Below, piece by piece: positions 17,534 through 25,759 of a DNA stretch of 64,000 nucleotides. A program made the translations under genes and the position numbers. How positions within the stretch are numbered: the stretch's first letter is position 1; every line of letters starts with the position of its first letter. The stretch covers positions 4,340,001 through 4,404,000 of the forward strand of contig NZ_CP087203.1 in the NCBI RefSeq assembly GCF_026016325.1, read 5' to 3'. The DNA is from Pseudomonas sp. B21-056. GTDB lineage: Bacteria; Pseudomonadota; Gammaproteobacteria; Pseudomonadales; Pseudomonadaceae. The notes beneath the pieces are model-generated. The model worked only from the letters and a program-made list of their open reading frames with translations, did no database searches and was not told where the DNA came from.

Positions 17534-19276
17534 TTACTTGCGGGCTGCTTCCCACGATTTCAGTAGTTCGGCGTAGCTCACGGTTTCGCCTTTAGGCTTC
17601 TCGTTCGCCAGTTTCGGCTTCGGTGCGCCCGGTTGGTCGAACCAGTACTGCGCGTCGCGTTCCGGGTTCATTTTCGGCGCGCAGGTGGCCTGGGCCTTGG
17701 AGCGTTCCAGACGGGTCATGATCGCGTCCTGATCCTTGGCCAGGCCGTCGAGTGCCTGTTGCGGAGTCTTCTCGCCGCTGGCAGCTTCGGCGATGTGGCT
17801 CCACCACAGTTGCGCGAGACGCGGATAGTCCGGCACGTTGGTCCCGGTCGGGGTCCATTGCACGCGGGCCGGGCTGCGGTAGAACTCCACCAGGCCACCG
17901 AGTTTCGGCGCCAGGTCGGTCATCGCCTGCGAGTTGATGTCCGACTCACGAATCGGCGTCAGGCCAACGATGGTTTTCTTCAGCGACACGGTTTTCGACG
18001 TCACGAACTGCGCGTAAAGCCAGGCCGCGAGTTTCTGCTTCTCAGGCGTGGACTTCATGAAGGTCCAGGAACCCACGTCCTGATACCCCAGCTTCATGCC
18101 CTCTTCCCAGTACGGACCGCGCGGCGAAGGTGCCATGCGCCATTTCGGCGTGCCGTCCGCGTTGACCACCGGCAGGCCCGGCTTGGTCATGTCGGCGGTG
18201 AACGCGGTGTACCAGAAAATCTGCTGGGCGATGTTGCCCTGGGCCGGCACCGGGCCGGATTCGGAGAAGGTCATGCCCGCCGCTTCCGGTGGCGCGTACT
18301 TCTTCAGCCAATCCACGTATTTGGTGGTGGCGAACACGGCCGCAGGGCCGTTGGTATCGCCGCCACGGGTCACGCTGGAACCGACCGGATGGCAGTCCTC
18401 GACACGGATGCCCCACTCGTCCACCGGCAAGCCGTTGGGCAGGCCTTTGTCGCCGCCACCGGCCATGGAGAACCAGGCATCGGTGAAGCGCCAGCCCAGG
18501 GACGGGTCTTTCTTGCCGTAGTCCATGTGGCCGTAGACACGCTTGCCGTCGATCTCCTTGACGTCCTCGGAGAAGAACTTGGCGATGTCTTCATAGGCCG
18601 ACCAGTTCACCGGTACGCCCAGCTCGTAGCCGTACTTCTCCTTGAACTTGGCTTTCAGGTCCGGACGCTCGAACCAGTCGGCGCGGAACCAGTAGAGGTT
18701 GGCGAATTGCTGGTCGGGCAGTTGATAGAGCTTGCCGTCCGGCGCGGTGGTGAAGGACGTACCGATGAAGTCCTTGATGTCCAGGGTCGGGGAAGTGAAG
18801 TTCTTGCCTTCATTGGCCATCAGGTCAGTGATCGATTCGGTCTTGCCGTAGCGAAAGTGCGTACCGATGAGGTCCGAGTCGTTGACCCAGCCGTCATAGA
18901 TATTCTTGTCCGACTGCATCACCGTCTGCATCTTTTCCACCACGTCGCCTTCTTGCAGCAGGTCGTGGGTCAACTGGATCCCGGTGATTTCGGTGAAGGC
19001 CTTGGCCAGTACCTTGGACTCGTATTCGTGGGTGGTGAGGGTTTCCGACACCACGTTGATCTTCATGCCACGAAACGGCTCCGCAGCCTTGATGAACCAC
19101 TTGAGCTCTTCGAGTTGCTGCTCGGCTGTCAGGGTTGACGGCTTGAATTCACTGCCGATCCATTTTTTTGCGGCGTCTTCATAGGCGTCAGCCCAGGCCA
19201 CAGCGCTCAACCCGCTGAGTGCCAGTGCGGCTGCCAATGAAACGCTATGTCGCAGCTTATTGTTTTTATTGAACAT
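17534..19276 (-). CDS. glpV: Periplasmic substrate-binding protein of a GlpSTPQUV-like ABC transporter
   Basis: 580 residues with a Sec signal peptide (LAAALALSGLSAVAWA/DAYED). It is unusually long for a sugar-binding protein, as is GlpV of the rhizobial glycerol transporter, and includes KWIGSEFKPSTLT and YQLPDQQFANLYWFRADWF. It is the last gene of a leftward operon with the order S-T-P-Q-U-V, which matches glpSTPQUV. Glycerol as substrate is inferred from that order and overall resemblance. An AGGAGGT ribosome site precedes it. Confidence 0.85.
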   Translation of the reverse strand: MFNKNNKLRHSVSLAAALALSGLSAVAWADAYEDAAKKWIGSEFKPSTLTAEQQLEELKWFIKAAEPFRGMKINVVSETLTTHEYESKVLAKAFTEITGIQLTHDLLQEGDVVEKMQTVMQSDKNIYDGWVNDSDLIGTHFRYGKTESITDLMANEGKNFTSPTLDIKDFIGTSFTTAPDGKLYQLPDQQFANLYWFRADWFERPDLKAKFKEKYGYELGVPVNWSAYEDIAKFFSEDVKEIDGKRVYGHMDYGKKDPSLGWRFTDAWFSMAGGGDKGLPNGLPVDEWGIRVEDCHPVGSSVTRGGDTNGPAAVFATTKYVDWLKKYAPPEAAGMTFSESGPVPAQGNIAQQIFWYTAFTADMTKPGLPVVNADGTPKWRMAPSPRGPYWEEGMKLGYQDVGSWTFMKSTPEKQKLAAWLYAQFVTSKTVSLKKTIVGLTPIRESDINSQAMTDLAPKLGGLVEFYRSPARVQWTPTGTNVPDYPRLAQLWWSHIAEAASGEKTPQQALDGLAKDQDAIMTRLERSKAQATCAPKMNPERDAQYWFDQPGAPKPKLANEKPKGETVSYAELLKSWEAARK

Positions 19277-19324: not shown

Positions 19325-19600
19325 CTAGCCCCACCGCATCACTGCCAACAGCCACACCCAGGACAACGCGAACGCTGTCCAGATGCTCCAGTCGGTGGCG
19401 CCGATTACCAGCAGATGCAGGTAGGCGCTACCGAGAAGACCGATAAACAACCGATCGCCACGGGTCGTGGTAATCGGCAGAAAACCACGCCGAGGGATGC
19501 TCGGCGAACGCAACTCCCAAGTGGTCATGCCTACCAGGAACAAGGCGATAACCCCAAAAAACGCCGCCGTCGGGACGGTCCAGTTCATCCATTCCATCAT
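19325..19600 (-). CDS. glpU: Small membrane protein GlpU-like (DUF2160)
   Basis: 91 residues with two to three membrane segments (TAAFFGVIALFLVGMTTW and WTAFALSWVWLLAVM) and the family segment SIPRRGFLPITTTRGDRLF. The ATG at 19600 follows GAGGAG; an upstream in-phase ATG at 19654 would overlap the permease gene. It is a standard but poorly understood member of glycerol-type ABC operons, placed between the permease and the binding protein. Confidence 0.82.
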   Translation of the reverse strand: MMEWMNWTVPTAAFFGVIALFLVGMTTWELRSPSIPRRGFLPITTTRGDRLFIGLLGSAYLHLLVIGATDWSIWTAFALSWVWLLAVMRWG

Positions 19601-19607
19601 CGACTCC

Positions 19608-20408
<801 letters not shown>

Positions 20409-20418
20409 CGTGCAGGCC

Positions 20419-22390
<1,972 letters not shown>

Positions 22391-22391
<1 letters not shown>

Positions 22392-23485
22392 CAGGCAACC
22401 CTCGCAATACGCTGGCCGGGGGCCTGAACCAACTTGCCCTGGGCATCGAAGACAAACAGTTTGTGGGTCGGGATGTAGATGCGGATCGGCGCATCCACGT
22501 CGTACTCATGCACGCCGGGCAGGTGCAGCACCAACAGGAAATGCTCGTTGCGCACGTGCAGGAAGGTCTCCGAACCACTGATCTCGGCCACCTCGACGGT
22601 CACCGCCAGTTCCAGGTCGTCGTCGTTGCTCGGCACCAGCGAGATATGGCTGGGACGCACGCCGAAACGGAACTCGCCCTCGCCCACCGGGCGCAGGTCG
22701 ACGTTCAACGGGAAGTGCACAAAATTGGCAAAGCTCACTTCATTACCGGCAATACGGCCCGGCATGAGGTTGATCGGCGGCTCGGAAAACAGCTCGGCGG
22801 CCAGCACGGTTTGCGGCTGGTGATAGACCGAGGCCGCCTTGCCGCTCTGGATCACCCGCCCCTCGTGAAGGATCGTGGTCGTGCCACCCAGGGCCAACGC
22901 TTCGTTGGGCTCGGTGGTGGCATAGACGGCAATGGTGTGGCGAGCCTGGAACAGTTCGCGCATTTCCTGGCGAAGCTCTTCGCGCAGCTTGTAGTCCAGG
23001 TTCACCAAGGGTTCGTCGAACAGGATCAGCTCGGCATCTTTCACCAGCGCGCGGGCCATGGCGGTACGCTGCTGCTGGCCGCCGGACAGTTCCAGTGGAT
23101 GGCGCTTCAGGAATTTTTCGATCCGCAGCATCTTCGCGGTTTCCAGCACCTTGCTCTGGATCACCTCGTTGGACACACCGGCCTGGCGCAAGGGCGAGGC
23201 GATGTTTTCGAAAACGGTCATGGTCGGGTAGTTGATGAACTGCTGATAGACCATCGACACGTTACGCAGTCGCACCGGACGATTGGTCACATCAACGCCG
23301 TTCATCAGGATGCGCCCGCTGTCGGGCTTGTCCAGGCCAGCCATCAAACGCATGAGGCTGGTCTTGCCGGACAGGGTGCGGCCCAACAGAACGTTGAAGG
23401 ATCCGGGTTCGAAATTCAGGTTGGCATCGTCGATCCAGGTCTGGCCTTCGACGGTGCGACAGATGTGCTCAAGCGTTAATGACAT
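22391..23485 (-). CDS. glpS: ABC transporter ATP-binding protein (GlpS-like)
   Basis: 364 residues, first gene of the operon. Walker A GRTLSGKTS, signature LSGGQQQRTAMARALV, Walker B LILFDEPLVNLD; the expected H-loop histidine position reads YATTEPNEAL, with Thr instead of His (family: THDQ/EA). A TOBE-type C-terminal domain follows. With the T subunit it energises the PQ channel. Transcription probably starts about 35 bases upstream from the sigma54 promoter at 23531-23546. Confidence 0.86.
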
Positions 23486-23530: not shown

Positions 23531-23546
23531 AGCGAAAGGCGTGCCA
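23531..23546 (-). promoter_or_regulatory. Sigma54 (RpoN) promoter of the transporter operon
   Basis: On the minus strand the sequence is TGGCACGCCTTTCGCT: GG and GC with ten bases between, the canonical -24/-12 spacing of TGGCACG-N4-TTGC with one change in the -12 box. It lies about 46 bases before the first gene's ATG and next to a divergent sigma54 activator gene. Confidence 0.8.
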
Positions 23547-23610
23547 GAAATTCCAACCGCCTGAATTTATTGGGTTTTGGTGTTTTTTGTAGGAAAAATG
23601 TATTCGCCGA

Positions 23611-23694
23611 TGAACACAAGTGAACAGACATGATTGAACAACTGAACAATTCGTAGGTTGACAATGAACAATTCTGAACAACAATGAATGAACG
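23611..23694. promoter_or_regulatory. Array of TGAACA repeats, candidate enhancer for the sigma54 activator
   Basis: TGAACA begins at 23611, 23621, 23635, 23643, 23665 and 23675, and TGAACG at 23689. The triplet 23611/23621/23635 and the triplet 23665/23675/23689 have identical internal spacing (10 and 14) and are offset by exactly 54 bases. They lie roughly 90-175 bases upstream of the inferred sigma54 start, the usual range for enhancer sites. Confidence 0.7.
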
Positions 23695-23718: not shown

Positions 23719-23812
23719 CTGTGGGAGCGAGCCTGCTCGCGATAGCGGTGGATCAGCCAGCATCCATATTGCCGATAGACCGCTATCGCGAGCAGGCTCG
23801 CTCCCACACAGG
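23719..23812. repeat. REP pair (BIME)
   Basis: Two inverted REP copies with extended outer arms (CCTGTGGGAGCGAGCCTGCT from 23719, and the reverse complement ending at 23812) around a 30-base spacer. It separates the TGAACA array from the activator gene. Confidence 0.92.
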
Positions 23813-23908: not shown

Positions 23909-25759
23909 ATGGCCGCACCAGCTCCTGCCTTGTCCCACGACGCCATCATCCAGGCTTCCTGGTCCCGCTGCCGTGCCTTTGGCCTGAATCACCAGAGCGC
24001 ACCAGCCTTCGACCCGTTGCCCGCCGAAGGCATCGCCCAGTTGCTGGAGAGCCAGCATTCCCTGGTGCAGACCACCCACCAGGAAGTCCTGCCGTACTAC
24101 GAAAACATCCTCAGCAACTCCAATTGCCTGATCATGCTGGCCGACAACCAGGGCCAGGTGCTGACCTCCTGGGGCACCCAGCGCTTCATCGAGCCGAAAC
24201 TGGCCCACGGCTTCAGCGCCGGGGCGAGCTGGATGGAGCGCTGCACCGGCACCAACGCCATCGGCACCGCACTGGCCTGTGAGCAGGCGGTGCACATTGA
24301 ACACGATGAACACTTCCTCAAGGCCAACCGCTTCATGACCGGTTCCGCCGCGCCGATCTTCGACGCCGAGCGCAAGGTCATCGCCGTGCTGGACGTGTCC
24401 AGCGACAGCTACCTGCCGCCCTCCCACACCCTGGGCATGGTCAAGATGATGAGCCAGACCGTGGAGAACCGGCTGATCCTCAACCTGTTCCGCAGTGAAC
24501 ACTTCCAGCTGACCTTCAACACCGGGTTGAACAACCTCGACAGCCAATGGGCCGGGCTGCTGATTTTCGACGAGAGCGGCCAGGTGCTTTCCGCCAATCG
24601 CCGGGCCGACAACCTGCTGGGCCTGAGCCTGTCGCGGGTCAGCATCGAAAGCCTGTTCAAGGTTTCGCTGCTGGAATTGCTGAACCAGCCCGACGGCCTG
24701 CCGTTCTCCTTGCAAGCGGCTGGGCGCCATCGTTTCCAGTGCATGCTCAAGCGCCCGAACCAGGTGTCGATCAAGCCACGCATCTTCACCGAGCCGGCGC
24801 CCTCGCCCGCCCCGGCTGCTGCTACCCACGTCATCAGCCTGAACACCCTGCACTTTGGTGACAGCCGTGTGGAAAAGGCCGTGCGCCAGGCCGAGCGCTT
24901 GTTGGAAAAAGACATTCCGCTGTTGATCCACGGCGAGACCGGCGTCGGCAAGGAAGTGTTCGTCAAGGCCCTGCACCAGGCCAGTTCCCGCTGCAAGCAG
25001 CCGTTCATTGCGGTCAACTGCGCGGCGATCCCGGCCGAACTGGTGGAATCGGAATTGTTCGGTTACGAAAAAGGCGCCTTCACCGGCGCCAACCAGAAGG
25101 GCAGCATCGGCCTGATCCGCAAGGCCGACCGTGGCACGCTGTTCCTCGACGAGATCGGCGACATGCCCCTGCCGACCCAGGCCCGACTCCTGCGGGTGTT
25201 GCAGGAGCGTTGCGTGCAACCGGTGGGCAGCGCCGAGCTGTTCCCGGTGGACATCCGCATCATCTCCGCCACCAACCGCTCGCTGCGCGAACAGGTGCAA
25301 CTGGGCCGCTTCCGCGAAGACCTGTACTACCGCATCGGCGGCCTGACCCTGGAACTGCCGCCCCTGCGCGAACGCAGCGACAAGCAGGCCCTGTTCAAAC
25401 GCCTCTGGGAACATCACCGCGAACCAAGCCAATGGGCCGGCCTGAGCCGCGAGGTGCAGGAGCTGTTCGAGCGTCATCCGTGGCCGGGCAACCTGCGCCA
25501 AGTCAGCAGTGTGCTGCAAGTGGCCCTGGCGATGGCCGAGGAACAGCCGATCCGCCCGGAACATCTGCCGGATGACTTCTTCGTGGACCTGGAAATGGAC
25601 CCGGTGGACACACCGGAGCCGCTGTCGGTGGACTTGAACGATGCCGAAGACCTGAACCGCCAATTGCAGGCGGTGGGCGGAAACATCTCGCACCTGGCAC
25701 GTCGGCTCGGGGTCAGTCGCAATACCTTGTACAAACGTCTGCGGCAGCTTGAGAGCTGA
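23909..25759 (+). CDS. AcoR-like sigma54-dependent activator (GAF-AAA+-Fis)
   Basis: 616 residues. The N-terminal sensor region includes a GAF-like part with WMERCTGTNAIGTALACEQ; the AAA+ domain has Walker A GETGVGKE (about 345), the sigma54-contact loop GAFTGA (about 389), Walker B LFLDEIGDMP and arginine-finger region; a Fis-type helix-turn-helix closes it (NISHLARRLGVSRNTLYKRL). It is divergent from the transporter operon that carries a sigma54 promoter, so it very likely activates it in response to a small ligand such as the transported polyol. A REP pair lies between. Confidence 0.9.
   Translation: MAAPAPALSHDAIIQASWSRCRAFGLNHQSAPAFDPLPAEGIAQLLESQHSLVQTTHQEVLPYYENILSNSNCLIMLADNQGQVLTSWGTQRFIEPKLAHGFSAGASWMERCTGTNAIGTALACEQAVHIEHDEHFLKANRFMTGSAAPIFDAERKVIAVLDVSSDSYLPPSHTLGMVKMMSQTVENRLILNLFRSEHFQLTFNTGLNNLDSQWAGLLIFDESGQVLSANRRADNLLGLSLSRVSIESLFKVSLLELLNQPDGLPFSLQAAGRHRFQCMLKRPNQVSIKPRIFTEPAPSPAPAAATHVISLNTLHFGDSRVEKAVRQAERLLEKDIPLLIHGETGVGKEVFVKALHQASSRCKQPFIAVNCAAIPAELVESELFGYEKGAFTGANQKGSIGLIRKADRGTLFLDEIGDMPLPTQARLLRVLQERCVQPVGSAELFPVDIRIISATNRSLREQVQLGRFREDLYYRIGGLTLELPPLRERSDKQALFKRLWEHHREPSQWAGLSREVQELFERHPWPGNLRQVSSVLQVALAMAEEQPIRPEHLPDDFFVDLEMDPVDTPEPLSVDLNDAEDLNRQLQAVGGNISHLARRLGVSRNTLYKRLRQLES

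Follow-up and report, generated by a model that had tools for sequence, protein, structure and literature searches.

A conserved TGTTCA array between a glycerol-type ABC transporter operon and a divergent AcoR/DhaR-like activator gene in Pseudomonas: a predicted sigma-54 enhancer

Introduction

How is a glycerol-type ABC transporter operon switched on when it lies divergent from the gene of a sigma-54 activator, and which protein reads the hexamer repeats crowded between the two? The locus that raises this question is found in the genome of Pseudomonas sp. B21-056, within a 64,000-nucleotide stretch (contig NZ_CP087203.1, positions 4,340,001 to 4,404,000; hereafter the window). An initial annotation of the window had placed a sigma-54 promoter before the operon, described the repeats as two matched triplets, and proposed that the divergent AcoR-like protein binds them and that the repeat may be the unreported recognition sequence of this protein. 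Here, the locus is compared with its counterparts in other genomes of the genus and with homologous operons that occur without the regulator.

Materials and Methods

Among 249 sampled genomes of the same genus, the regulator was counted in 183 at E ≤ 1e-120 and the first transporter ATPase in 184 at E ≤ 1e-130. The 119 orthologous loci compared below come from distinct genomes, out of 185 in the genus that encode the regulator, the transporter ATPase, or both. Of these loci, 83 are centered on the regulator, 16 represent 15 genomes missing the strict array pattern plus G161, and 20 were chosen for the pattern. Two of 90 regulator-centered loci (L012 and L037) stop short of the transporter gene and were excluded, and five others (L045, L073, L076, L079, and L080, among the 15 strict-pattern misses) were replaced by a second retrieval of the same genomes. 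G161 was included although its regulator is below the cut-off, and G069 was used as a control.

Eight homologous operons without the regulator were available for comparison. One is from the same genus (G069; no regulator at E ≤ 1e-70), and seven are from other families of the class (no regulator at E ≤ 1e-120). The binding protein was found in 13 genomes outside the genus, of which seven have a readable upstream region, four gave no ATPase match in the stretch retrieved, and two have the operon at contig ends.

Results and Discussion

The Transporter Operon and Its Links to Glycerol

The operon lies on the minus strand and begins with genes for two ABC ATPases (22391..23485 and 21282..22391; both PF00005), followed by those for two ABC permeases (20419..21285 and 19608..20408; both PF00528), a small DUF2160 membrane protein (19325..19654; PF09928), and a glycerol-type substrate-binding protein (17534..19276), which has no Pfam or NCBIfam match of its own. 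With its DUF2160 protein and GlpV-like binding protein, the operon has the six-gene make-up of the glpSTPQUV type. According to the accessible text of PMC7912956, the same two ATPases, two permeases, small membrane protein, and binding protein are encoded by glpSTPQUV of R. leguminosarum and Rmet_2229-2234 of C. metallidurans.

Several observations concern the substrate. Among the best 120 relatives of the binding protein, some that are 78–86% identical bear the name "glycerol transport system substrate-binding protein", a name given by JGI alone, and a PDB sequence search returned one weak match, a trehalose/maltose-binding protein. In this genome, glpK is located about 590 kb from the operon; elsewhere, homologous operons adjoin glpD or a GlpR-type gene. 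The Cupriavidus homologue is described as GlpR-repressed and glycerol-responsive (PMC7912956, accessible text). In a P. chlororaphis mutant, GlpV was 8.16-fold up relative to the parent in glycerol medium, a result on expression and not on regulation (PMC4895345, accessible text). The gene layout and the names of relatives suggest that the operon serves the uptake of glycerol.

The Repeat Array in the Window

The intergenic region between the regulator gene and the operon spans 423 bp and has divergent genes on both sides. On its plus strand, TGAACA can be read directly at 23611, 23621, 23635, 23643, 23665, and 23675, and TGAACG at 23689, such that seven TGAAC(A/G) copies are packed into 84 bp. 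Dinucleotide shuffling of the 423-bp region (20,000 rounds) gave at most three copies per equal span (reached 14 times), which bears out the seven repeats of the initial annotation. On the operon strand, the copies are TGTTCA at 134, 124, 102, 94, 80, and 70 bp upstream of the T in the -24 element, with CGTTCA at 148 bp. The triplets at 23611/23621/23635 and 23665/23675/23689 do have a common 10/14 spacing and a 54-bp offset in the window, with 73% identity over 30 nt.

Two cluster patterns were searched in the 6.45-Mb genome. The triple pattern GTTCAN{3,9}GTTCAN{3,20}GTTCA occurs at 10 places, of which four, mutually overlapping, are at the array locus; none of the other six is made of three TGTTCA. 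The pair TGTTCA-N2..4-TGTTCA also occurs at 10 places, three inside the array, and among the seven outside one has the N4 spacing of the array and none has N2. Because these two patterns revealed no second such array, the idea of a genome-wide regulon signal was set aside.

Conservation of the Array Across Pseudomonas

Upstream of the orthologous operons, where the initial annotation had suggested looking for TGAACA arrays, all 119 loci keep three to seven exact TGTTCA (six in 59 loci, five in 27, four in 28, seven in three, and three in two). The copies are strongly oriented, with 628 TGTTCA on the operon strand and 26 inverted TGAACA over the 119 loci. The commonest unit comprises six operon-strand TGTTCA at intervals of 10/22/8/14/10 and is closed by an inverted half-site, whereas some clades (e.g., L031–L033) have intervals of 10/22/10. 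Half-site 2 (23665..23670) served as the comparison anchor and is exact in 112 of the 119 loci and inverted to TGAACA in two. At their offsets from this anchor, exact copies were found for half-site 1 (23675..23680) in 92 loci, half-site 3 (23643..23648) in 108, half-site 4 (23635..23640) in 94, half-site 5 (23621..23626) in 76, and half-site 6 (23611..23616; 70 bp from the -24 T) in 74, all on the minus strand in the window. Most spacer columns are poorly conserved, other than the inverted half-site and the TTGAC and AACACT blocks discussed below.

These counts bear on the matched triplets. The seventh copy (CGTTCA; 23689..23694, minus strand) is lineage-specific, being an exact TGTTCA in one of the 119 loci and within one mismatch in 19, whereas half-site 3, which lies outside the two triplets, is among the best conserved. 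The triplet pair is therefore a trait of the window strain and its near relatives and not a conserved design, and it was rejected as a binding unit.

The inverted half-site reads CGAATA on the operon strand in the window (23601..23606, minus strand; consensus YGAACR) and lies 10 bp beyond the promoter-proximal TGTTCA. It matches TGAACA at four or more of six positions in 88 of the 119 loci. Dyad (inverted-repeat) sites are not the design of the array, as an imperfect dyad is present at its proximal end only. Helix-turn-helix (HTH) dimers usually read dyads, and the enhancer sites of most described cases are dyads, so half-sites in the same orientation are atypical.

Promoter, Spacing, and Overlapping Elements

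A -24/-12 element of the sigma-54 type, TGGCACGCCTTTCGCT (23546-23531, minus strand), lies 45 bp from the ATG at 23485 of the first transporter gene, in agreement with the initial annotation. The GG-N10-GC arrangement is kept in 119 of 119 orthologous loci, with the majority consensus TGGCACGAATCTCGCT, and the operon promoter is predicted to depend on sigma-54. None of the 119 loci examined lacks both the repeats and the -24/-12 element.

The distance between the array and this promoter varies from locus to locus. From half-site 2 to the -24 T, distances of 89, 100–102, 112–113, 123–124, 132–138, and 143–146 bp were found among the 119 loci, a ladder that is broad at its two longest steps. The array moves as a block relative to the -24 element, in steps of roughly 11 bp. 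Rayleigh tests on the 17 distinct half-site 2 distances gave p values of about 0.098, 0.0017, and 0.00016 for periods of 10.0, 10.5, and 11.0 bp, respectively, and those on 18 last-half-site distances gave 0.2, 0.047, and 0.0059, all uncorrected for ancestry and choice of period. The ladder is the pattern that a looping enhancer obliged to face the polymerase would show.

Between the array and the -24 element, many relatives have WATCAANNNNTTR at a position where the window has a weak IHF-like site (23554..23566, minus strand) whose 7/9 match is within chance. Scored against the IHF consensus, perfect sites occur in this interval in 26 of the 119 loci (0.2 expected from shuffles) and matches of at least 8/9 in 72 (6.0 expected). 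The perfect sites begin 20, 30–31, or 42 bp before the -24 T.

At the other end of the array, a promoter-like element for the regulator gene, TTGACA-N16-AACAAT (23658..23685, plus strand), overlaps half-sites 1 and 2; one element of this type was found, compared with 0.3 expected from shuffles. Its -35-like block is TTGACA in 100 of the 119 loci and TTGACT in 19, although the comparison anchor demands GTCAA and thus makes that core invariant by construction. The -10-like block, which is free of the anchor, is AACACT in 82 loci, GACACT in 17, AACAAT in 11, and others in nine. In several loci of one clade (L119–L121, L123, L125, and L126), the AACACT/GACACT block is retained alongside a weakened half-site 1, so the block seems to have a role of its own. 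The natural reading is that TTGAC(A/T)-N16-AACACT represents the sigma-70-type promoter of the regulator, lying under half-sites 1 and 2. This overlap argues for autorepression, in which the divergent activator probably represses its own gene. The fixed intervals, the inverted proximal half-site, the helical-turn ladder, the IHF-like site, and the embedded regulator promoter are all absent from the initial annotation.

The Divergent Regulator as the Probable Reader of the Array

The divergent gene (23909..25759, plus strand) encodes an AcoR/DhaR-like sigma-54 activator of 616 aa. Its AAA+ domain (PF00158, 223.7 bits) has Walker A, GAFTGA, and Walker B motifs (GETGVGKE at 342, GAFTGA at 389, and LFLDE at 411), and a Fis-type HTH is located at the C-terminus (PF02954, residues 584–613). 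The regulator has the N-terminal region, AAA+ domain, and Fis HTH in common with the DhaR/AcoR family, and its residues 13–243 produce a match (E = 1.6e-7) to 4lrx_C, a solved DhaR regulatory protein. Unlike DhaR, it scores below the equivalog cut-off (265.1 bits against 551 for NF008485) and adjoins a transporter operon. DhaR belongs to dihydroxyacetone/glycerol metabolism. Because the operon has links to glycerol and the N-terminus of the regulator resembles the regulatory part of DhaR, our guess is that the inducer is glycerol or a derivative. The predicted structure of the regulator has a mean pLDDT of 79.9 and a pTM of 0.49, and a fold search with this model gave, among the best 50 of 1710 matches, AAA+ activator folds and nothing on the sensor.

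The array pattern was found in 167 of the 183 regulator-positive genomes and in none of the 66 regulator-negative genomes of the genus, and a reversed control pattern was found in none of these genomes. The 16 regulator-positive genomes missing the pattern have variant or degenerate arrays together with the -24/-12 element. Linkage explains much of this co-occurrence, because 64 of the 66 regulator-negative genomes are also without the transporter ATPase at E ≤ 1e-130. Within the regulator, all 19 orthologs aligned, the most distant at 56% overall identity, keep the HTH sequence SR(N/T)T(L/V)YKRL, whereas nine relatives at 36–41% identity have YRK or YRR instead of YKRL. The correspondence between YKRL and the array fits the regulator as reader and is confounded with descent.

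Based on these sequence comparisons, the array is very probably the enhancer of the sigma-54 promoter that drives the six-gene glycerol-type ABC operon, read by the divergent AcoR/DhaR-like activator. The initial proposal thus names the likeliest reader, whose binding we infer; the further idea, that the repeat may be an unreported recognition sequence of this protein, has good comparative support. In the mechanism envisaged, the Fis-type HTHs of the regulator would dock on TGTTCA half-sites that are mostly in one orientation, at 10/22/8/14/10 bp and with the inverted half-site on the promoter side. The bound oligomer would loop over, with IHF assisting in lineages that have the site, and the regulator would touch the sigma-54 holoenzyme at -24/-12 through GAFTGA and remodel it with ATP. 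Occupancy of the two distal half-sites would shut the sigma-70-type promoter of the regulator.

Operons Without the Regulator and Alternative Readers

Operons that occur without the regulator test this reading better than the co-occurrence counts do. In the upstream 400 bp (217 bp for G069), TGTTCA/TGAACA and TGGCA-N7-nGC are both missing from all eight homologous operons of this type. Five of these (L261–L263, L289, and L290) make weak controls: an open frame on the same strand stops no more than 76 bp before the ATPase gene, and no promoter is expected there. This frame is glpD-type by profile in L261 and L289, a GlpD-like sequence in L262 and L263, and other enzyme-like in L290. The remaining three (L117, L288, and L291) are true intergenic controls. 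In L291, the ATPase gene lies 91 bp after a DeoR/GlpR-type gene, whereas in L288 (2561–2720; G355) and L117 (G069) about 160 bp separate the ATPase gene from the start of a divergent gene. The divergent gene of L288 is of the DeoR/GlpR type, with 269 bits against a cut-off of 331, and the 19 residues visible of that in L117 are identical to it. Therefore, the same transporter occurs with a GlpR-type gene replacing the regulator, without the array or the sigma-54 promoter. G069, the one same-genus operon found without the regulator, fits the reading of the array as the regulator's target in having neither the repeats nor the promoter.

These neighbors raise an alternative, to which we give only a small chance: the array may be the operator of GlpR, the DeoR-family glycerol repressor, while the enhancer-binding protein uses another site. 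The sequence TTTTCG-N4-YGAACA was found upstream of glpD in all 29 readable loci of 30 (e.g., L308, 4580–4630), and its TGTTC/GAACA core and 10-bp dyad spacing are like those of the array. In G069, CGAACA-N4-CGAACA direct repeats lie between the two divergent genes (L117, 1–217), beside the DeoR-like gene. The glpD or GlpR-type neighbors of homologous operons and the GlpR repression described for Cupriavidus (PMC7912956, accessible text) lend further weight. However, the two groups of sites differ in sequence: an A stands before TGTTC in 73 of 95 glpD-upstream copies and in 21 of 638 copies from the array, whereas at the sixth base it is found in 33 of the former and 628 of the latter, with copies that are not independent within or between genomes. 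By these counts, the array departs from the ATGTTCR half-sites in TTTTCG-N4-YGAACA-like dyads that would mark a GlpR operator; the GlpR-type dyad pattern is present in 12 of the 119 array loci. Moreover, there is no evident cause for a GlpR repressor site 60–150 bp upstream to be phased with the -24/-12 element, and no other conserved block for the activator was seen between the regulator and ATPase genes. It is most likely that the array and the glpD-upstream sites are read by different proteins, although GlpR may bind the array in part.

A more speculative scenario, which we hold to be unlikely as a whole, is a regulator swap. The Pseudomonas glycerol ABC operon would have passed from GlpR-type repression, which relatives with a divergent DeoR/GlpR-type gene would have kept, to a sigma-54 activator in the same place, with a target that kept the GlpR core (TGTTC and 10-bp steps). 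GlpR may then compete for some half-sites, and the array would integrate both inputs and shut the promoter of the activator.

Slightly less probable than a GlpR operator is that the array is the target of another enhancer-binding protein, whose gene lies elsewhere, and that the divergent gene is a mere neighbor. Activator relatives are many in Pseudomonas (16–53 first-look candidates per listed genome), and we infer the specificity of the divergent regulator for the array. The genomic context argues against this explanation. In 88 of 90 loci, the regulator and ATPase genes diverge, and the other two loci stop at a contig edge. A one-genome-per-species scan gave at least 119 array-pattern matches, and 116 of those listed are the Pseudomonas locus; among the matches listed, 102 adjoin both genes and 13 adjoin the one gene in view, and the match L184, at the end of its stretch, has the array and the start of the -24 element. 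Three of the listed matches are outside Pseudomonas and have neither gene (a Smithellaceae bin, a Bacilli bin, and Desulfopila). In addition, the loci of 13 related or paralogous activators have no hexamer cluster, with none exceeding one hexamer per 100 bp.

Finally, although TTGAC and AACACT are strongly conserved over half-sites 1 and 2, it is scarcely credible that the hexamers mark only the overlapping regulator promoter or an AT-rich spacer without regulator binding, because half-sites 3–6 lie outside this promoter and keep fixed intervals while most spacer columns vary.

Comparison With Known Systems

With the divergent regulator as its predicted reader, the array belongs to a known kind of element, the sigma-54 enhancers, and has an unusual same-orientation design. 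The PilR sites at the pilA promoter are also short repeated direct motifs for a Pseudomonas enhancer-binding protein, with a motif, protein, and target other than those of the array. In P. aeruginosa, the GcsR enhancer that precedes gcvH2 likewise consists of adjacent sites for one enhancer-binding protein at a sigma-54 metabolic operon (PMC4894688, accessible text). However, the GcsR sites are described there as three 18-bp dyads, TGTAACG-N4-CGTTCCG, whereas the array has mostly same-orientation 6-bp half-sites at unequal fixed intervals and a different sequence. As for the operon, the accessible text of PMC7912956 places a GlpR repressor near glpK/glpD for glpSTPQUV and Rmet_2229-2234, in contrast to the sigma-54 promoter, array, and divergent activator of the window.

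In the literature searched, we found no description of a TGTTCA array, of sigma-54 control of such an operon, or of a TGTTCA target for a DhaR/AcoR-family protein. Two HT-SELEX papers (PMC7532196 and PMC8041468) have no TGTTCA or TGAACA in the accessible main text, and a motif logo in their supplements is possible. The TGAACA in the accessible text of PMC3224230 is part of a PCR primer.

The comparison provides a predicted DNA target for an uncharacterized activator group present in 183 of the 249 sampled genomes of the genus. Furthermore, the arrays, offset from one and the same promoter in steps of about a helical turn, form a natural series on the distance and phase tolerance of a sigma-54 enhancer. 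The results also suggest that Pseudomonas activates this glycerol-type transporter in another way than is the case for the relatives linked to GlpR, a difference relevant to growth on glycerol.

Variant Loci and Other Intergenic Features

In two loci (L115 and L116), the inverted half-site 2 forms a TGTTCA-N4-TGAACA dyad. In G161 (L116, L274, and L281), the regulator gene is broken into two overlapping pieces, one of them with a reported stop, which may be due to decay or sequencing error; the -24/-12 element is kept, as is the array, in which one site is inverted. The gap between the regulator and ATPase genes ranges from 246 to 465 bp among the regulator-centered loci. In the window, a REP-like inverted repeat of 38 nt (23720-23808; 92% complementary, 13-nt loop) lies between the array and the regulator gene, and similar palindromes occur in some relatives.
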